Virus record (IMG/VR): IMGVR_UViG_3300025327_000016
Coordinates: 1-64,000 of that record
Strand: one strand, 5' to 3'
Source: a virus
Length of the DNA stretch: 64,000 nt
The notes under the pieces are model-generated. The model did not search any database. It was not told where the DNA came from and worked only from the letters and a program-made list of their open reading frames with translations. Below are positions 2,469-17,043 of the stretch, in pieces. Every line of letters begins with the position of its first letter. Position 1 is the stretch's first letter. Both the position numbers and the translations under genes were made by a program.

Positions 2469-2651
2469 TTATTCATTGATACCCTTCCCTTCTTTTTCAG
2501 AAATGTTTATAGACGAGAGAACTGGAGATATTGAAGAAGATTCAAATACTCTATCAGAGTATTCAAGAGCAATACTTTCTGCAGATGAAAAATTATTTGC
2601 TTTTACCGTAAATGTTACAGGATAAACTATTGTAACTTCATATAAATTCAT
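2469..2651 (-). CDS. Hypothetical protein, 60 aa
   Basis: I place the start at ATG 2649-2651, 4 nt after the stop of the upstream gene, which suggests coupled translation. A longer reading starting at 2852 only shadows the upstream gene in another frame. The product begins MNLYEVTIVYPVTFTVKANN and continues as a short acidic, Ser-rich protein. The first part looks like two or three beta strands. No family recognised. It is one of three genes bracketed by the CRISPR-like repeats. Confidence 0.6.
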   Translation of the reverse strand: MNLYEVTIVYPVTFTVKANNFSSAESIALEYSDRVFESSSISPVLSSINISEKEGKGINE

Positions 2652-2655
2652 TGTT

Positions 2656-2877
2656 TTACCACATATCCTTTCTTTTTGTGCGCTCCTGTTCGAGCGCACC
2701 AACCACCTTATTAAACTTATCTTCGGCTGGAAGCCGAAGATGATCAAACCTTTCCTCCAACATCCCCTGTTCTTCAGGGGATAATACATACCCCTGAGCG
2801 AGCTTCTGATGGAGCTCGTGACGAACGATCTCCTCTTCGGAGACCGTTTCAAAATATCTAATTTTGCTTTTTATCAT
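2656..2877 (-). CDS. Hypothetical helical protein, 73 aa
   Basis: ATG at 2875-2877 is chosen over the in-frame start at 2937 because GGGAGGTGT lies just upstream. The protein is charged and helical (EEEIVRHELHQKLAQGYVL; LEQERTKRKDMW). Its coding DNA contains several perfect hairpins: 2678-2699 (8 bp), 2719-2741 (10 bp, 3-nt loop) and 2762-2782 (8 bp), which begin the hairpin-rich zone. Function unknown. Confidence 0.68.
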   Translation of the reverse strand: MIKSKIRYFETVSEEEIVRHELHQKLAQGYVLSPEEQGMLEERFDHLRLPAEDKFNKVVGALEQERTKRKDMW

Positions 2878-2881
2878 ACTT

Positions 2882-3259
2882 CTACACCTCCCTAAATTGA
2901 ATAAATTTAAAGATGGCGGTCTTTTCGACCGTACCATCCGTCAATATTTTCTCTACCGCCTCGCGGCGGGAGGTAGATACTACTACTTTATACCCTAACT
3001 CTTTACACATATGAGTTAAAGTATAAAATAACGATTGTTCCCCCATTACATGGAGGATTACTTGAGAGGGGGATAACCCCTTAATATCAAGGATCTCTCC
3101 TATCTGATACATCATATCCATAGCTAACTTACTAATCCCCTCCTTGTCTAAGGAGGGGTCAACTTGCGGAAACGGCATATCTAATATATCCCCTTTTACC
3201 CCTTCTCTTTGTTCTATTGACCATTTCCCATATGGGTGGTTGCTGATATTAATAAACAT
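2882..3259 (-). CDS. Small Rossmann-like protein, possible type III CRISPR accessory/ring-nuclease relative
   Basis: ATG at 3257-3259 follows AAAGGAAGTGT; the longer in-frame start at 3376 has no ribosome binding site. The 125-aa protein begins MFINISNHPYGKWSIEQREG, has a DMPFPQVDP segment, then alternating strands and helices with HVMGEQSLFYTLTHMCKELG and VVVSTSRREAVE, ending FKFIQFREV. The fold pattern is Rossmann-like. From memory, this opening and the GE...Y.L...G motif recall small proteins found beside type III CRISPR systems (CARF-type, Csx20-like), but I cannot confirm this. It is the first gene downstream (minus sense) of CRISPR-like copy 2, which makes an anti-CRISPR role worth testing. 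The existence of the gene is firm; the function is a hypothesis. Confidence 0.7.
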   Translation of the reverse strand: MFINISNHPYGKWSIEQREGVKGDILDMPFPQVDPSLDKEGISKLAMDMMYQIGEILDIKGLSPSQVILHVMGEQSLFYTLTHMCKELGYKVVVSTSRREAVEKILTDGTVEKTAIFKFIQFREV

Positions 3260-3452
3260 ATTTACACTTCCTTTCTTTATCCATAATATCCACCTAAACA
3301 ATACAAACTTAGGTGGTCTTACCAAGATACATAACAGGATGCTTGCACACCGTATGCAAAACACCCTGTCATCCACAGACTTATCTTCCCCACGAACAGA
3401 AAAGGGCAGGTGGTAGATATCCTACCCGCCCACTCTCATCTTCCGTAGAAAA
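3260..3452. other. Leader region with hairpins, no gene
   Basis: This stretch upstream (minus sense) of the Rossmann-like gene holds an 8-bp hairpin with an 11-nt loop at 3290-3316, an imperfect hairpin near 3331-3375 (CAGGATGCTTGCA paired with TGCAAAACACCCTG), and a GGGCAGGTGGTAG / CCTACCCGCCC hairpin around 3405-3431. I see no open reading frame with a ribosome binding site. It may be the structured leader of the gene at 2882-3259. Confidence 0.5.
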
Positions 3453-3492
3453 AGTAGAAAAATGAGACCTGATCAGTAAGGGATTGAAACTT
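3453..3492 (+). repeat. Solitary CRISPR-repeat-like unit, copy 2
   Basis: It matches copy 1 at 38 of 40 positions; the only changes are TAA to CAG in the middle (two substitutions). Both copies are preceded by CTTCCGT within 50 nt. On the plus strand the unit is followed by a 12-nt T run (3505-3516), which would suit the end of a short transcript. It lies between the minus-strand terminator at 3519-3550 and the leader of the next gene, so it is not inside a protein gene. Confidence 0.7.
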
Positions 3493-3518
3493 TACGCCTT
3501 CTTTCTTTTTTTTTTTGA

Positions 3519-3550
3519 ATTAAAAAAAGCCGAGGGCTAATGCCCTCGGC
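3519..3550 (-). terminator. Intrinsic terminator, minus strand
   Basis: Perfect 9-bp stem (GCCGAGGGC / GCCCTCGGC, loop of 4) at 3529-3550, followed in the minus direction by seven U residues (the A run at 3522-3528). It lies just after the stop codon of the gene at 3561-3926. Confidence 0.75.
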
Positions 3551-3551
3551 T

Positions 3552-3894
3552 AAATCAAGCCTAGAAACTAGGCTTGATTTTTCCAGGAGCCTTTTTAGGC
3601 TCCTGGAGGAGCTCACTCACGCGAGCTCCTCCGTACCGTCCAAACTGGACGGTGTAGAGTTTGAACTCTTCACCGTCCTTTATTGTAATCCACGGGGACG
3701 GGTTCCCCGTGTCCCTGGGACCAAGTCCGATCCCAGTCCAGACGCACGCATCTGGGCTGAGATCAAAGATCTCAGCCAGCTCTCCTGTAATAATTACAGG
3801 AGAGCTTACGCTCCCTTTCTCAGCATTAAATCTTTCTATTAGCTCGCCCAAAGGGCGAGCCAATAAACCCTTAGCGAGCCCGATAAGGCTCGCT
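3552..3894. repeat. Chain of back-to-back perfect hairpins inside a coding sequence
   Basis: Perfect stems follow each other almost without gaps: 3552-3580 (13 bp, loop AAA), 3583-3606 (10 bp), 3607-3630 (8 bp), 3635-3653 (8 bp), 3691-3711 (8 bp), 3715-3736 (6 bp), 3755-3777 (10 bp, loop AAA), 3778-3806 (29-bp odd palindrome), 3842-3860 (8 bp, loop AAA) and 3873-3894 (8 bp). Together they cover most of the gene at 3561-3926. Both arms of each stem are coding. See findings. Confidence 0.9.
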
Positions 3895-3926
3895 TCTTTT
3901 TTCCCTTTAACTTCTATAAAGCTCAT
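3561..3926 (-). CDS. Hypothetical protein, 121 aa, encoded by hairpin-chain DNA
   Basis: ATG at 3924-3926 has an excellent AAAGGAGGTAAAAAA ribosome binding site. The protein has a plausible soluble composition: a basic N-terminus (VKGKKEASLIGLAKGLL), a middle with PVIITGELAEIFDLSPDACVWTG, and a basic C-terminus (LLQEPKKAPGKIKPSF). The LAEIFDLSPD segment could be a short helix-turn-helix-like element, but this is weak. The gene is bounded by a terminator downstream and a large hairpin upstream. Its DNA is markedly more GC-rich than the structural genes. Confidence 0.68.
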   Translation of the reverse strand: MSFIEVKGKKEASLIGLAKGLLARPLGELIERFNAEKGSVSSPVIITGELAEIFDLSPDACVWTGIGLGPRDTGNPSPWITIKDGEEFKLYTVQFGRYGGARVSELLQEPKKAPGKIKPSF

Positions 3927-3944
3927 TTTTTTACCTCCTTTTGG

Positions 3945-4082
3945 CAGCAGCTAGATGCCTGCTGCCTTGGATATTGTAGGTGCACATGGGGCAGACAAGG
4001 AACTGAATTGTCAAGATACGCTGTTTGTCTTGACAATGTCTGCCCCATGTGCTTTGCTTTTTAAGGCAGCAGGCAGCTGCTG
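3945..4082. promoter_or_regulatory. Large compound inverted repeat in the leader of the 3561-3926 gene
   Basis: Three nested perfect stems share one axis: 13 bp at 3956-3968/4063-4075 (extended by 7 bp at 3945-3951/4076-4082 across a 4-nt bulge), 16 bp at 3982-3997/4037-4052, and 9 bp at 4008-4016/4028-4036. It lies about 20 nt upstream of the ribosome binding site of the gene on the minus strand. It could be a regulatory RNA leader, a protein-binding cruciform or a replication element; the sequence does not decide. Confidence 0.75.
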
Positions 4083-4751
4083 ACTAAAAGAAAGAGGTAA
4101 AGAGATGAGGAGAAGTAAGGGGAAGAAAGAGGCATGAGACAGAGGGAAGCTAAAGAGGGGGGCTCGAGGAGGCGAGTTGATGGTGGCACCTCCCCTCCCT
4201 CTTTTAGGTGTTGTAGCTGGAGAGCAGAGGGGGTTTAGCCCCTCTGGTCGGGACACTATTATTACAACATCAAGGTTAGTGGGGGGGAATAGTATCCTCA
4301 TGTATAGGCTATCAACTTATACTATAAGGTTAAGTTGGATAGGGAAGAGGGGCCGAAGGCCCCTGATGGGAGCACTAAGAGGTTCTTTAAGGGTTATATA
4401 TGAGGCATAAAATAACTCCCTATATAAGCCTTGAAAGAAAACCCTGGATTAAAGCCATTTGTTTTTGAGAGATGAGTACCAATAAGGTGGTTTTTAAGAA
4501 TGGCTCTACCATTGACTTGAGACTACCTCAGCTACAGGGAACGACATCTAAAGGACAGGCAAAAAATGGCTCTGCTACGTGGTCAAAAACTGGCGTGGCT
4601 ATTGGATGTGGTTTTTCAAACGGATGTTGTATTATCAACGTTGGGCGCCGAAGGCGTAGTAGATAAGGGTAGGTTGGAATAGGAATAGACAAGGGGAGCC
4701 GAAGGCTTGAGGTAAGAGGAAGTAGGGAGGGGGGTGCGAAGCACCCCTGTT
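4083..4751. other. Structured, probably non-coding stretch with GAA-loop hairpins
   Basis: From 4083 to about 4180 the plus strand is very purine-rich. Short hairpins with a GAA loop follow at 4348-4364 (7 bp), near 4647 (CGCC-GAA-GGCG), near 4699 (AGCC-GAA-GGCT) and 4731-4747 (7 bp), plus an 8-bp stem at 4225-4246. Two plus-strand ORFs (4177-4410 with GAGGAGG upstream; 4472-4666 with a weak site) are possible, but have unconvincing composition and lack family features. No minus-strand gene with a ribosome binding site was found here. Confidence 0.45.
4472..4666 (+). CDS. Doubtful small ORF, 64 aa
   Basis: ATG at 4472 with a weak GAGAG site 1-2 nt upstream. The N-terminal half (MSTNKVVFKNGSTIDLRLPQ) reads like real coding sequence and vaguely recalls the FKNG...I stretch of the terminase in this window, but the similarity is too short to rely on. 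The C-terminus (VGRRRRSR) comes from one of the GAA-loop hairpins. It is on the opposite strand to the surrounding accessory genes. It may be a gene remnant. Confidence 0.25.
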   Translation: MSTNKVVFKNGSTIDLRLPQLQGTTSKGQAKNGSATWSKTGVAIGCGFSNGCCIINVGRRRRSR

Positions 4752-4797
4752 GGGAGGAAAAAGGGGAGCGGTAGAGCTAAACAAGCCTCTACCGCTC
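4752..4797 (-). terminator. Intrinsic terminator, minus strand
   Basis: Perfect 12-bp stem (4764-4775/4786-4797, loop of 10) followed on the minus strand by CCTTTTT. It lies 7 nt after the stop codon of the small zinc-ribbon gene at 4804-4983. Confidence 0.65.
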
Positions 4798-4803
4798 CGA
4801 AGA

Positions 4804-4983
4804 CTACGAGTAATCCTCGTAGTCGTCTTCCAGGGGGCAGGCTATTACCCACCCCCAATCGTATGCACAATCAACGCATACGCCCATCTCCTGACAAGAT
4901 GTCAGGAGACCTACTTCTCCACATACAGTGCAGAAGTCTATATCATCAACTTCCACCATAGAAGTTGATGATAATATTCTCAT
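4804..4983 (-). CDS. Small zinc-ribbon-like protein, 59 aa
   Basis: ATG at 4981-4983 with a near-perfect AAAGGAGGTGAAAT ribosome binding site. The product has CTVC at residues 18-21, CVDC at about 36-39, further Cys at about 30 and 49, and an acidic tail (LEDDYEDYS). Two CxxC pairs predict a zinc ribbon. The coding DNA is largely hairpin: 4802-4824 (9 bp), 4860-4882 (7 bp), 4887-4909 (9 bp) and 4941-4973 (13 bp). It ends at an intrinsic terminator. Function unknown. Confidence 0.72.
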   Translation of the reverse strand: MRILSSTSMVEVDDIDFCTVCGEVGLLTSCQEMGVCVDCAYDWGWVIACPLEDDYEDYS

Positions 4984-4999
4984 ATTTCACCTCCTTTCT

Positions 5000-5218
5000 T
5001 TAGTTGTTTGTTGAGACGTGACTTAGATACCATATCCAGTCACATCTTATTAGGGCTCCATCATACAATCTGGGCAAATAAAGTGCCCAGATTGCTTTCA
5101 GGATACAACCCTTTATTACTTCAGGGTTGTATCCTAGATCACTAACCCATTCTGGGTTAGTGATAAACATCATTCGTGCGCTGTACTGACAGCGCACGAA
5201 CTTAAACAAGTATTCCAT
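5000..5218 (-). CDS. Hypothetical protein, 72 aa
   Basis: ATG at 5216-5218 with GAAAGGAGGG upstream. The product is a compact aromatic protein (MEYLFKFVRCQYSARMMF; YNPEVIKGCILKAIWALYLPRLYDG). No family recognised. Its coding DNA is made of four large, nearly adjacent perfect hairpins: 5066-5094 (11 bp), 5100-5135 (13 bp), 5138-5164 (12 bp, 3-nt loop) and 5173-5200 (12 bp, 4-nt loop). Each arm encodes a different peptide, so the structure constrains the protein. Confidence 0.7.
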   Translation of the reverse strand: MEYLFKFVRCQYSARMMFITNPEWVSDLGYNPEVIKGCILKAIWALYLPRLYDGALIRCDWIWYLSHVSTNN

Positions 5219-5246
5219 TAATATCCCTCCTTTCTAATCTAGCAAG

Positions 5247-5450
5247 CTACCGCTTGCTGCATATATCAACAACAAACCCTGCTCCTCCTAATAGGAGGAG
5301 TACTACAAGCACTCCTCCCAACCATGGGAGCAGCACACAAGCTGCTCCCACCAACCCCACCCATAAGAGGGTGGTACCAATTAGGTTGTCCTTCTTTCGA
5401 AGGAACCAACCTAGTACTGCTATAAAAATACAAATTAACAACCTTAACAT
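5247..5450 (-). CDS. Small membrane protein, 67 aa, paralogue of the gene at 2144-2386
   Basis: ATG at 5448-5450 with GAGAGGTGAG upstream. Three hydrophobic segments: residues 2-16, about 24-40 and about 43-60, with a short RKKDN loop. The layout GW-basic loop-two close membrane segments matches the protein encoded at 2144-2386. The coding DNA holds hairpins at 5282-5300 (19-bp odd palindrome) and 5325-5350 (10 bp). No enzyme motif. It could act on the membrane during infection, but this is inference. Confidence 0.7.
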   Translation of the reverse strand: MLRLLICIFIAVLGWFLRKKDNLIGTTLLWVGLVGAACVLLPWLGGVLVVLLLLGGAGFVVDICSKR

Positions 5451-5520
5451 ATTTACTCACCTCTCTTTCTCGTGACCATTATTTAACGAGGCGGTCACTA
5501 CCTCGTAAGCTCAGTCCTAA

Positions 5521-5685
5521 CTATCCCTCCTTTCGCGCGATGTACTCATCGTACATCGCGTTGATATCCTCGTCCGTAAGAACGAGGTCTTCCGACCAGG
5601 ACTCATAGTCCTGGTCTACCTGCTGGAGGCAGCCCCAGCAAGGGGCTGCCTCCAGGTACAACTCATCAATCAGGTCCCTGATCAT
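5521..5685 (-). CDS. Small acidic protein, 54 aa
   Basis: ATG at 5683-5685 with AAAGGAGGTGAG upstream; a longer in-frame start at 5832 would only shadow the upstream gene. The product is strongly acidic (SEDLVLTDEDINAMYDEYI), with CWGC near residues 15-18. The start overlaps the stop of the upstream gene as ATGA. Coding hairpins: 5536-5560 (10 bp), 5594-5616 (10 bp, 3-nt loop) and 5623-5655 (14 bp, 5-nt loop). Small acidic phage proteins often bind host proteins or mimic DNA; nothing here proves that. Confidence 0.68.
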   Translation of the reverse strand: MIRDLIDELYLEAAPCWGCLQQVDQDYESWSEDLVLTDEDINAMYDEYIARKEG

Positions 5686-5849
5686 TTGCTCACCTCCTTT
5701 CGAAGGCGAACAGCTTCTGAAAGCTGCTCGCGATGATATCGCGAGCGTAACTCCCAGACATACTCTGGGAGCTTGTCCAAAAGCCCCCAGACTAACTCGG
5801 GTTCCCAACCCGAGTATCTCTTTTCGATCCAACTTTCAAAACTCATCAT
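5682..5849 (-). CDS. Hypothetical protein, 55 aa
   Basis: I choose ATG at 5847-5849 (AGTAGGT upstream) over the in-frame start at 5891. The product is helical and charged (MMSFESWIEKRYSGWEPELVWGLL... ending EAVRLRKEVSK). Its TGA overlaps the ATG of the next gene (ATGA), so the pair is translationally coupled. Coding hairpins include 5726-5746 (9 bp, 3-nt loop), 5751-5771 (8 bp) and 5795-5815 (9 bp, 3-nt loop). No family recognised. Confidence 0.62.
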   Translation of the reverse strand: MMSFESWIEKRYSGWEPELVWGLLDKLPEYVWELRSRYHREQLSEAVRLRKEVSK

Positions 5850-5904
5850 ATAATACCTACTTTCTGCCGCTGTTAAGCGGCGTAATGTCACCCACTTGGT
5901 GGGT

Positions 5905-5946
5905 GCAAAAAAGGGGAAGGGAGAGCTTGTAAGCTCTCCCTTCCCC
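5905..5946 (-). terminator. Intrinsic terminator, minus strand
   Basis: The longest perfect stem in the arm: 16 bp at 5913-5928/5931-5946 with a 2-nt centre, followed on the minus strand by six U residues (A run 5907-5912). It lies just after the stop of the gene at 5957-6193. Confidence 0.8.
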
Positions 5947-5956
5947 CCAACTTACT

Positions 5957-6193
5957 TTACTCAGAGACCTCGGCGTAGAATGCGCCGAGATCCTCCTTCC
6001 CCTTTATTACAACATTAACGCACTGGCCGAGGTTACTGTGAATGTAAAAACTCGTGCATTCAATCTTTTCAGCTGCGCACGCTGCGCAGCTGGACGGGTA
6101 GGCATAGCCTACCCATCCAGTGAACCCCGCGGGCGGGTTCTGACACCATTCCATGATGGCGTCGTAAAGCTCTCTACCTTTACAAATACTCAT
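5957..6193 (-). CDS. Hypothetical protein with cysteine cluster, 78 aa
   Basis: ATG at 6191-6193 with GAAAGGAGTAT upstream. The protein has an N-terminal helix (GRELYDAIMEWCQNPPAG), a central cluster SSCAACAAEKIEC and a C-terminal part VNVVIKGKEDLGAFYAEVSE. Three clustered cysteines plus one at residue 17 could bind a metal. Coding hairpins at 6071-6091 (9 bp, loop CGC) and 6096-6114 (8 bp, 3-nt loop). It ends at a strong terminator. Function unknown. Confidence 0.68.
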   Translation of the reverse strand: MSICKGRELYDAIMEWCQNPPAGFTGWVGYAYPSSCAACAAEKIECTSFYIHSNLGQCVNVVIKGKEDLGAFYAEVSE

Positions 6194-6205
6194 ATTATAC
6201 TCCTT

Positions 6206-6310
6206 TCATCTACAGCCTGCCTCACGGTCAGGTCTTACATAGACCTCATCATCGGTGTCGCAAGCCACCTCCCACCTACACCCCGTGGTTGGGGTTAAGC
6301 CCGCAACCAT
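6206..6310 (-). CDS. Tiny ORF, 34 aa
   Basis: ATG at 6308-6310 begins 3 nt after the stop of the 24-codon ORF upstream, so re-initiation is plausible; its own ribosome binding site is weak. The peptide is MVAGLTPTTGCRWEVACDTD followed by an acidic-to-basic tail ending AGCR. The stop codon precedes the AAAGGAG of the next gene. It fills the gap exactly between two genes, which supports it, but its small size leaves real doubt. Confidence 0.42.
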   Translation of the reverse strand: MVAGLTPTTGCRWEVACDTDDEVYVRPDREAGCR

Positions 6311-6313
6311 AGA

Positions 6314-6388
6314 TTACTCTATGGTTGCGAACTCAGCGTTCAGTATCGCCCAACAATAGGCGACACAAATCCAAAGTTCAAATATCAT
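6314..6388 (-). CDS. Tiny hydrophobic leader ORF, 24 aa
   Basis: ATG at 6386-6388 has one of the best ribosome binding sites in the window (AAAGGAGGTGAAATAT). The peptide MIFELWICVAYCWAILNAEF plus four residues is mostly hydrophobic and could be a single membrane helix or a leader peptide. A perfect 12-bp hairpin (6302-6329, 4-nt loop) covers its stop and the start of the next ORF, which would suit translational control. It appears to be the first gene of this minus-strand operon. Confidence 0.5.
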   Translation of the reverse strand: MIFELWICVAYCWAILNAEFATIE

Positions 6389-6693
6389 ATATTTCACCTC
6401 CTTTCAGCCACATAGTTCACAGGGGGGGGTGGGGCACCAAACGATAAATCCCCTGTGATATTATCTGCATTACCACCCACACACACATACACTCACCCTA
6501 ACGGGGTTACCTGCTCGCACCACAAGCAAATAAATGAGCCTAGAACACATCGTAGGGGAAGGGGTGGGTACTGGAAGCTAGGGGTAATTACCCCTAGCTT
6601 TAAGAAGCCTTCTAAAATTTTTAGTGGAACCTTCTCTTATTTAGCTTTCGCCAGGGCTTTAACAGCTTTTATATCTAACAAGAGGTATATATC
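6389..6693. other. Divergent intergenic region between the minus arm and plus-strand genes
   Basis: About 300 bp without a convincing gene. It contains a 9-bp inverted repeat with a 24-nt loop at 6417-6458 (leader of the minus operon), a possible minus-strand -10 (TAATAT, near 6462-6467) without a clear -35, and a perfect 26-bp palindrome at 6575-6600. The two gene groups diverge from here, so promoters for both strands are expected, but I cannot place them with confidence. Confidence 0.5.
6575..6600. repeat. Perfect 26-bp palindrome
   Basis: AAGCTAGGGGTAA joined to its exact reverse complement, with no loop. The absence of a spacer favours a dimeric protein-binding site over an RNA hairpin. 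It sits in the divergent intergenic region, a natural place for an operator. Confidence 0.7.
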
Positions 6694-12909: not shown

Positions 12910-13956
12910 ATGACAATGTCAGCGCCATCACCTAACTCTCTACCATTCCTAAATACAATTTATGATGCAAATAAATTCTATGGCGACCTAAGAAGCCAAG
13001 TCAATAATCACATATTTGGACAAAACAATGCAATAGATGTTGTTCTACAGACCTTTAAAAGATATTTAGTTGGATTAAACGAACCCAACAAACCCATAGG
13101 TGCTTTTTTATTTGTTGGTCCTACAGGTTCAGGCAAGTCACAAACTGCAAAGGTATTAGCGGAACATGCATTTGGAAAAGAAGGACTTATTAAAATAGAC
13201 TGTTCTGAATATGCTCAAGAATTTATGGCTACTAGATTAATAGGTGCTCCTCCTGGCTATATTGGACACGAAAATGGTTCAGTATTAATACGTATGATGC
13301 AACAACGTAAGGATAAGGGTACTATAATTCTCTTTGATGAAGTAGAAAAAGCACACCCTACTTTCTTTGATTTATTTCTTCAGATACTAGATGAAGCTGT
13401 TCTTACAGATGGTTCGGGCACCCAAGCAGACTTCTCTAAATCAATAATAATTATGACATCCAATATTGGCTCTAAAAACTATAGCAACAATCAAACACTT
13501 GGATTTAGAAACAATAATCGCATAGTTGATATAGAGAAATCAGTTAATAAAGAAATAAAGGCATTACTTAGACCAGAACTAATTAATAGACTAACAGCTA
13601 TGCTTTATTTTAAACCATTAACTGAAGTGGAGATCAAACTTATATTAGGCAAGTATTTTAAAGAACTAAATAAAAAACTTCAACGACTAGAGATTAAACT
13701 AGAACCTAGTGATGAAGTTATAGAACATCTAATTAAAATAGGATTTAATCCAGAATATAATGCAAGAGAATTGTATCGAGTATTTACTAGATACATAATT
13801 AACCCTATGTCAGATATTATTCTGGCTGGAGATCTTAAAAGTGATAGTCTAGTATTAATAAAATTATCACCTTCAACCATAGGATCTTCTCCTAAATTGC
13901 TATTAAAACGGATAGGTTCATACCCATTATTAGATGATGGGGAAGAAGAGGTATAA
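12910..13956 (+). CDS. AAA+ ATPase, ClpA/ClpB C-terminal-module type
   Basis: I place the start at ATG 12910 (AAAGGAG upstream), not the in-frame start inside the previous gene. The 348-aa protein is a single Hsp100-type AAA+ module: HIFGQNNAID entry motif, Walker A GPTGSGKS (K76), pore-loop region APPGYIGHENG, Walker B IILFDEVEK (D143-E144), sensor 1 MTSNIG, arginine finger RPELINRL, and sensor 2 YNARELYR. No N-domain or ClpP-binding loop is evident, so it is more likely an unfoldase or remodeller than a protease partner. Lying between terminase and portal, it may help capsid assembly or act on host proteins. Confidence 0.88.
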   Translation: MTMSAPSPNSLPFLNTIYDANKFYGDLRSQVNNHIFGQNNAIDVVLQTFKRYLVGLNEPNKPIGAFLFVGPTGSGKSQTAKVLAEHAFGKEGLIKIDCSEYAQEFMATRLIGAPPGYIGHENGSVLIRMMQQRKDKGTIILFDEVEKAHPTFFDLFLQILDEAVLTDGSGTQADFSKSIIIMTSNIGSKNYSNNQTLGFRNNNRIVDIEKSVNKEIKALLRPELINRLTAMLYFKPLTEVEIKLILGKYFKELNKKLQRLEIKLEPSDEVIEHLIKIGFNPEYNARELYRVFTRYIINPMSDIILAGDLKSDSLVLIKLSPSTIGSSPKLLLKRIGSYPLLDDGEEEV

Positions 13957-16113: not shown

Positions 16114-17043
16114 ATGAAACATAAGCTATTTCGTATATATGAAAGATTTCAGGTGGCATTACCTGAACGCTATATTAAGATATATGAGGCAACCCAGTCA
16201 TCGTCTATGTTACTAGAAGCTTCAGATGAAGGTTCGCTTGGTGGTATGATGCCAGCAACTTCTAGTATGAAAGGTAGTGAGGGGCTGCGCCCCGAAATAG
16301 AAGCCATTCATAGTGATAAGATTACGCGTAATTATACATACTACCCATTAGAAAAGGTTATGGGAGATAAGAAAAAGAAGAGTGGCTTATACTCAGCTAC
16401 ACATCCCGTACCCAAACCTATTCTTCGTAATCATGATATAGATAGTGAACCTCTTGGTAGAATTGAACAGGCATATATGGGAGATGGAGATAAAAAGGGT
16501 AAGAACGCTCCCATGATGATAGTACCCAGAATTACAGACCCAGGAGCAATACAGAAAATATTAGATGGCCGATACCTGACAGTATCTATTGGTGCAGATA
16601 CGAACGAAGCTAGGTGTTCTATATGTGAAGCCAATATAGCTAGCGATGAAGCTTGTGATCATATGCGTGGTTATTTCTACAATGCAAAAGGCGAAGCCGT
16701 AGGTCCTGACGATCCTCGTGGTAAGATGATGTATAGACGCATAGGCGACTTTTATATAGCAGAAGTTTCATTTGTTAATATACCCAGTGATGACACAGCT
16801 AAAGTGCGTCATCCTAATCTAGATGCTGTAATGAAAGAATATTACAAGGAAGATAGGTTATTGTCATTACGCTTAAGTGAAGCCTATTATAAGGAGGATC
16901 ATCCTATGGAAGCATTAGATAGGTATGTAACATACCTTGGCGATCAAGAAGGTGCGTCTTATTTGTGGAGTGCAGTAAACTTGGAGTTGTTAGATAGAGA
17001 TGATTATGTTGATGCCTCAGACGAATCCGAGGAGGCAGAATAA
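16114..17043 (+). CDS. Prohead protease
   Basis: 309 aa. The pattern PKPILRNHDI (H107), a strand with APMMIVPRITDPGAIQKILDGRY, then YLTVSIGADT (S158) matches the His and Ser of the herpesvirus-like prohead protease fold. It is followed by the cysteine-rich CSICEANIASDEACDHMRG and AEVSFVNIPSD found in this branch of phage proteases. It would cleave the scaffold and capsid N-termini during maturation. Position directly after portal and before the scaffold-like gene is standard. Confidence 0.82.
   Translation: MKHKLFRIYERFQVALPERYIKIYEATQSSSMLLEASDEGSLGGMMPATSSMKGSEGLRPEIEAIHSDKITRNYTYYPLEKVMGDKKKKSGLYSATHPVPKPILRNHDIDSEPLGRIEQAYMGDGDKKGKNAPMMIVPRITDPGAIQKILDGRYLTVSIGADTNEARCSICEANIASDEACDHMRGYFYNAKGEAVGPDDPRGKMMYRRIGDFYIAEVSFVNIPSDDTAKVRHPNLDAVMKEYYKEDRLLSLRLSEAYYKEDHPMEALDRYVTYLGDQEGASYLWSAVNLELLDRDDYVDASDESEEAE

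Follow-up and report, generated by a model that had tools for sequence, protein, structure and literature searches.

What could fill a run of protein-coding genes with perfect short hairpins, and what would keep them there? This question is raised by a 64-kb stretch of viral DNA (the window), the first 64 kb of the 99.8-kb IMG/VR record IMGVR_UViG_3300025327_000016, in which a series of small leftward genes near the left end is packed with short inverted repeats (the island). The original prediction had reported more than 30 perfect stems at 2678–6329, and our count is in line with it: 2641–6420 contains 40 such stems when the minimum length is set at 8 bp and the loop at 3–12 nt, a density of 10.6 per kb, where mononucleotide shuffles of the same interval yield 0.4 stems in total. 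The four stems that it offered as examples are found exactly where it had placed them, within the 72-codon open reading frame (ORF) at 5000–5218 on the minus strand. The island is real and far beyond chance; its stem excess depends on the actual codon order, is confined to one gene cluster and is found again in a similar cluster of a second phage. The recurrence of such a cluster in a distantly related phage suggests that, in some phages, selection maintains a tight fold in particular messages.

Judged by its terminase, portal, head and tail-sheath genes and by homology to Moorella phage MTATph1 (32% in the portal), the window phage is a large contractile-tailed phage, with replication genes that include a PolIII-alpha fragment, UvrD, RecA, Rad52-like and UDG proteins. 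Sequence beyond both ends of the window comes from two longer assemblies of this phage and brings the total to ~175 kb. The assemblies L008, L010 and L011 are the same phage at 99.98% identity, and they confirm the sequence yet provide no independent evidence. For comparison we used 167 kb of this phage outside the island, together with 1.13 Mb from 77 further phage contigs, which are in part redundant.

Stem density and codon-shuffle controls

Stems of at least 8 bp occur at 0.74 per kb in the remaining phage and 0.30 per kb in the other contigs, stems of at least 10 bp at 5.8 per kb in the island, 0.21 in the remaining phage and 0.034 in other phage contigs, and the 2-kb maximum for stems of at least 9 bp is 18 in the island and never above 4 in the remaining phage or at the other phage loci compared. 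The earlier statement that nothing of this density is found in the structural genes holds for the remaining phage, with the qualification that the latter is itself mildly stem-rich (stems of 10 bp or more are ~6 times as frequent as in other phages, 4 times in coding DNA). The island excess is restricted to loops of 0–12 nt (40 stems against 0.7 after shuffling), loops shorter than 3 nt being rare, while inverted repeats at distances of 13–200 show no comparable excess (14 versus 8) and direct repeats in the island are ordinary. All stem sequences differ, each matching only its own reverse complement within the record, and the stems show no codon-phase preference (13:8:10). Arms are 61% GC and loops 37%; this GC richness is uniform along the stem, and the likely source DNA has 37–42%. 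Folded as RNA, the minus strand of 4800–5700 reaches a z of −26.8 against dinucleotide shuffles. Additionally, contig L018 carries perfect stems of 17 bp and 19 bp in small reading frames distant from the island (12920–12958 and 16609–16654).

The region is tiled by nine leftward ORFs of 54–125 codons and a tenth of 24 codons; almost all follow a good ribosome-binding site of AGGAGG type. The original prediction placed most stems inside genes, and 29 do fall within ORFs; as a correction, three that lie between genes probably serve as ordinary intrinsic terminators (Table 1). With G-U pairs admitted, hairpins occupy 28–73% of the length of every one of the ten ORFs, and outside the arms the codon-position signal persists (GC 0.46, 0.30 and 0.48 at positions 1, 2 and 3). 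At seven of eight starts the ribosome-binding region is less paired than the ORF body. The island ORFs belong to no known family: Pfam, PHROGs, tblastn and viral-contig scans matched the same phage only. Rfam returned no structured-RNA family above its cut-offs.

As a control, synonymous codons were permuted within each gene, leaving protein and codon usage unchanged. The nine ORFs at 2656–6193 hold 29 stems where ~2.2 remain after shuffling, or 25 versus 2.0 with two ORFs left out on account of their reading frame, and the claim withstood this check, which had been proposed together with it. Local folding in the correct frames is stronger than in synonymous shuffles in nine of nine ORFs (z −3.9 to −10), against a mean z of −0.4 to −0.9 for 213 control genes from these and other phages, three of which fall below −4. 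The downstream genes on the same strand at 761–2654 are normal (z −2.3 to +1.2), so the feature begins at ~2.65 kb with a sharp edge.

A similar cluster in a second phage

The second island was reached through a homologue of a DUF4326 gene of the window phage, hairpins being no criterion: the search for DUF4326 relatives brought eleven other loci, some redundant, one of which proved hairpin-rich. This contig, IMGVR_UViG_3300033153_013547 (G004), represents 261 kb of a phage whose core genes are distant from those of the window phage (major head protein 35%, portal 26%, terminase 24–29%). Its island spans 74–83 kb, with a GC of 0.46–0.55 within an AT-rich phage, and forms a leftward operon that includes DUF1848, DprA-like, NADAR, macro-domain and DUF4326 genes. 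Coding stems number 30 where 2.1 are expected, and folding lies below a z of −4 in 14 of 15 genes; the GC contrast is weak here (arms 0.53, loops 0.48). In three of four families the hairpin arms sit on conserved residues, arm conservation being no lower than that of the rest in DprA (0.55 versus 0.35), DUF1848 (0.61 versus 0.48) and DUF4326 (0.67 versus 0.53).

At 74.9–82.5 kb of the same contig, a ~100-nt leader containing three hairpins stands eight times in front of small genes, ahead of the ribosome-binding site; of 25 pairs in it, 3 are altered on both sides. A third contig, IMGVR_UViG_3300050821_003171 (L126, also G005), has a moderate number of stems, including stems of 17 bp and 15 bp. 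No island was seen in Moorella phage MTATph1 or Bacillus phage KLEB27-3, of which 89 and 117 kb were examined, and searches at the DNA level matched neither of the two islands to any GenBank phage.

RNA folding, copying and other explanations

The reading we prefer, at a probability of about 0.5, is that the island represents a leftward accessory operon, selected for transcripts that fold locally into chains of short hairpins while its proteins stay intact. Such transcripts would fold codon by codon, with ribosome-binding sites mostly remaining open and the proteins unharmed, and the folded message could be shielded from single-strand-specific RNases or RNA-guided cleavage; some of the long perfect stems may first have been made by fold-back template switching and then retained. 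Selection of the mRNA or single-stranded DNA for local folding was one of two possibilities in the original prediction; its RNA-level form draws on the synonymous shuffles, on the arms placed on conserved residues and on two tests of strand. In the second island the sense strand folds more stably than its antisense, with an energy difference of −430 against −281 ± 25 in shuffled versions (z −5.9). Among non-Watson-Crick pairs in the stems, read as mRNA, G-U outnumbers A-C by 9–10 to 1 in the window and by 22–27 to 8–9 in the second island; these counts come from mismatch-tolerant stems at looser settings, and the pooled p is 0.002–0.05 depending on the setting. Sense RNA as the selected molecule is supported but not proven.

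A series of results weighs against this reading. In the window island the sense-antisense difference shows no excess (−127 versus −113 ± 14 in shuffled versions, z −1.0), and the over-stability is nearly the same on the two strands, which is what a process acting on DNA would produce. Control sets in the same test scatter from −2.5 to +1.8 standard deviations, so that the −5.9 of the second island is less extreme than it appears, and the G-U test depends on its settings (single-set p 0.02–0.26). Arm conservation in the second phage's NADAR gene falls below that of the remainder (0.17 versus 0.29). The family, tblastn and viral-contig searches described above found no diverged homologue of the window island in which compensatory changes could be sought; between families, proteins conserved without the stem, which the original prediction had named as a point against itself, do occur, namely among DUF4326 homologues. 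Furthermore, the Watson-Crick perfection of the arms fits copying better, and so does the window phage's own DUF4326 gene, ~3 kb left of the window, where a 14-bp stem absent from homologues replaced conserved residues: the right arm retains the family motif SEV(I/V)A, and the left arm reads ATTS for KDGT at equal length.

Some of these observations also serve the other possibility that had been raised, a palindrome-generating copying process, which is plausible for some of the long stems. In its full form the island would be a template-switch hot spot, where the replisome of phage or host turns back onto the newly made strand and uses one arm as template for the other, palindromes being made and re-perfected in an accessory operon that tolerates or attracts such copying, for example through strong transcription; we regard this as possible but lean against it. 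The mechanism is known to make hairpins in one step (PMC8794818) and to alter several residues of a gene at once (PMC8604942), and, as cited in PMC7202029, was first seen in phage T4 and yeast. It would account for perfect arms, for an excess seen only at loops up to 12 nt, for the over-stability of both strands and for the enrichment of the whole phage and its coding DNA. Two polarised cases, with one arm shared and the other apparently rewritten, point the same way: beside DUF4326, the stem in ORF 2144–2386 has a left arm (plus strand; the 5′ arm in the mRNA) identical in its paralogue at L017 15171–15395 and a block-changed other arm. Neither stem is accompanied by an indel, compared with most DUF4326 homologues in one case and with the paralogue in the other. 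The two cases have no DNA-level outgroup, and the pattern of ancestral and copied arm is missing from three of the four families examined in the second phage. A 75% relative (L012) ends before the island and has few stems and no clear polarised case in the shared genes. Copying is harder to reconcile with arms far richer in GC than the likely source DNA along their whole length, with the sense-strand excess of the second phage and the G-U bias, with arms on conserved residues, and with the sharp confinement to one operon. Loss of SbcCD was considered as a cause and rejected: BLAST found no hit in the window phage but an SbcC-like match in the second, so such a loss does not explain the islands.

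Because of the two polarised cases and the mild genome-wide enrichment, we consider fold-back copying a likely source of long perfect stems and RNA-level selection, with which it is compatible, the likelier reason why they accumulate in one operon. Two other explanations fare worse. A palindrome chain acting on the DNA itself, as a cruciform or single-stranded landmark for replication, packaging or protein binding, would suit the position of the island beside a strand switch and GC-skew minimum at ~6–8 kb, but is highly improbable given stems that are all different and scattered through ORFs, the rarity of loops shorter than 3 nt, and the other genes in the island of the second phage. An island made up of structured non-coding RNAs, with reading frames present only incidentally, would suit the strong folding and the segment 4090–4760, which looks non-coding (plus-strand z −7.6); the tandem arrangement of ORFs with AGGAGG-type sites, the codon-position signal, CxxC and hydrophobic-segment features and, in the second island, known protein families make this very unlikely.

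As for what selection on folding would serve, some large phages might encode a host-takeover or anti-defence operon in hairpins so that its mRNA offers little single-stranded target, an RNA armour, an idea we consider doubtful. Protection of early or anti-defence messages is inferred from what such structure would do, and the CRISPR-like repeats beside the window island (described below), together with the NADAR and macro-domain genes of the second, are only suggestive of protection from defence.

Features of the island and relation to known systems

Table 1. Hairpin-rich reading frames and other structured elements of the island (window coordinates; z, local folding relative to synonymous shuffles)
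Position (strand)	Feature	z	Stems and remarks
2219–2241 (−)	10-bp stem		in ORF 2144–2386, just beyond the island
2656–2877 (−)	hairpin-rich ORF, 73 aa, no known family	−6.3	2678–2699, 2719–2741, 2762–2782
2882–3259 (−)	hairpin-rich ORF, 125 aa	−4.0	3137–3158, plus G-U stems
3528–3551 (−)	probable intrinsic terminator		10-bp stem then T6; closes leftward unit
3561–3926 (−)	hairpin-rich ORF, 121 aa	−10	~54% of length in hairpins; 3582–3607, 3605–3632, 3635–3653, 3691–3711, 3755–3777, 3778–3806, 3842–3860, 3873–3894
3943–4085	nested long inverted repeat, intergenic		inner stem-loop 4007–4037
4765–4798 (−)	probable terminator		12-bp stem then CCTTTTT
4804–4983 (−)	hairpin-rich ORF, 59 aa, CxxC motifs	−6.9	4887–4909, 4941–4973
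5000–5218 (−)	72-codon ORF	−7.6	~73% in hairpins; 5066–5094 (11 bp, loop 7), 5100–5135 (13 bp, loop 10), 5138–5164 (12 bp, loop 3), 5173–5200 (12 bp, loop 4)
5247–5450 (−)	hairpin-rich hydrophobic ORF, 67 aa	−6.4	5282–5300, 5294–5318, 5325–5350; possibly a distant paralogue of 2144–2386
5521–5685 (−)	hairpin-rich ORF, 54 aa	−3.9	5536–5560, 5594–5616, 5623–5655 (14 bp)
5682–5849 (−)	hairpin-rich ORF, 55 aa	−7.3	5726–5746, 5751–5771, 5795–5815
5913–5946 (−)	probable terminator		16-bp stem then T6
5957–6193 (−)	hairpin-rich ORF, 78 aa	−5.7	6070–6092, 6096–6114
6314–6388 (−)	24-codon ORF, strong ribosome-binding site		stop codon in loop of 12-bp stem 6302–6329

Several further elements accompany these genes. 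The stem-loop TTGTCAAGATACGYTGTTTGTCTTGACAA occurs in two copies with a conserved loop, at window 4007–4037 and at L020 898–934 (~180 bp left of the window), and was found in no viral contig besides the assemblies of this phage. The apparently non-coding segment 4090–4760, which may be a structured RNA gene, contains several hairpins capped C-GAA-G and folds more strongly on the plus strand than on the other (z −7.6 versus −4.2). Two solitary elements that resemble repeats of clustered regularly interspaced short palindromic repeat (CRISPR) arrays (ATGAGACCTGATYARTAAGGGATTGAAAC) lie at 2430–2463 and 3457–3490, below the Rfam cut-off for CRISPR-DR8, and are similar to the solitary repeat units that PMC10651486 describes as RNA anti-CRISPRs; a host array for this repeat was not found, the search giving two single matches whose surrounding arrays were not examined. 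Arrays of a degenerate 12-bp unit (AACAGCATTACC) occupy at least three places in the phage (window 1–640 and 46345–46529; L013 14525–14832).

The limited literature collection that we searched contained no report of hairpin islands in an operon of a double-stranded DNA phage. Closest are the mitochondrial genes of Nematomorpha, which hold dense coding palindromes whose function was left open, with a maintenance quirk favoured (PMC6649704). Both systems have perfect inverted repeats in protein genes with both arms coding, dense and lineage-specific; the nematomorph repeats reach 284 bp and sit in conserved respiratory genes of a mitochondrion, whereas those of the window island are 8–16 bp long, belong to one phage operon and carry signs of selection on sense RNA. 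Among the second phage's genes, DprA, DUF1848 and DUF4326 have conserved arms of the nematomorph type and NADAR does not, nor does DUF4326 of the window phage. Genome-scale ordered RNA structure (GORS), the excess folding across whole RNA-virus genomes (PMC3695492, PMC7642675), likewise takes coding RNA beyond shuffled controls, but it spans entire genomes of animal RNA viruses, whereas here that spread is absent: strong folding is confined to islands, and long perfect local hairpins mark one accessory operon of a double-stranded DNA phage. Template-switch hairpins resemble our two polarised cases in that single events yield perfect reverse-complement arms and block changes of amino acids; they have been reported as scattered events and not as chains over neighbouring genes (PMC8794818, PMC8604942). 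The palindromic elements of Rickettsia, as cited in PMC6649704, also lie within reading frames, but are described there as repeated insertion families, whereas here every stem is unique and the alignable genes show no insertion.

The island indicates that coding DNA can carry dense local structure across whole small genes, limited to a single operon of a DNA virus. If this structure protects against nucleases or RNA-targeting immunity, it would be a counter-defence that needs no protein and could be discovered simply by scanning genes against their codon shuffles; should it be what fold-back copying leaves behind, these phages would be natural mutators in which the making of palindromes could be studied directly. 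Either reading makes the origin and persistence of coding hairpins testable.

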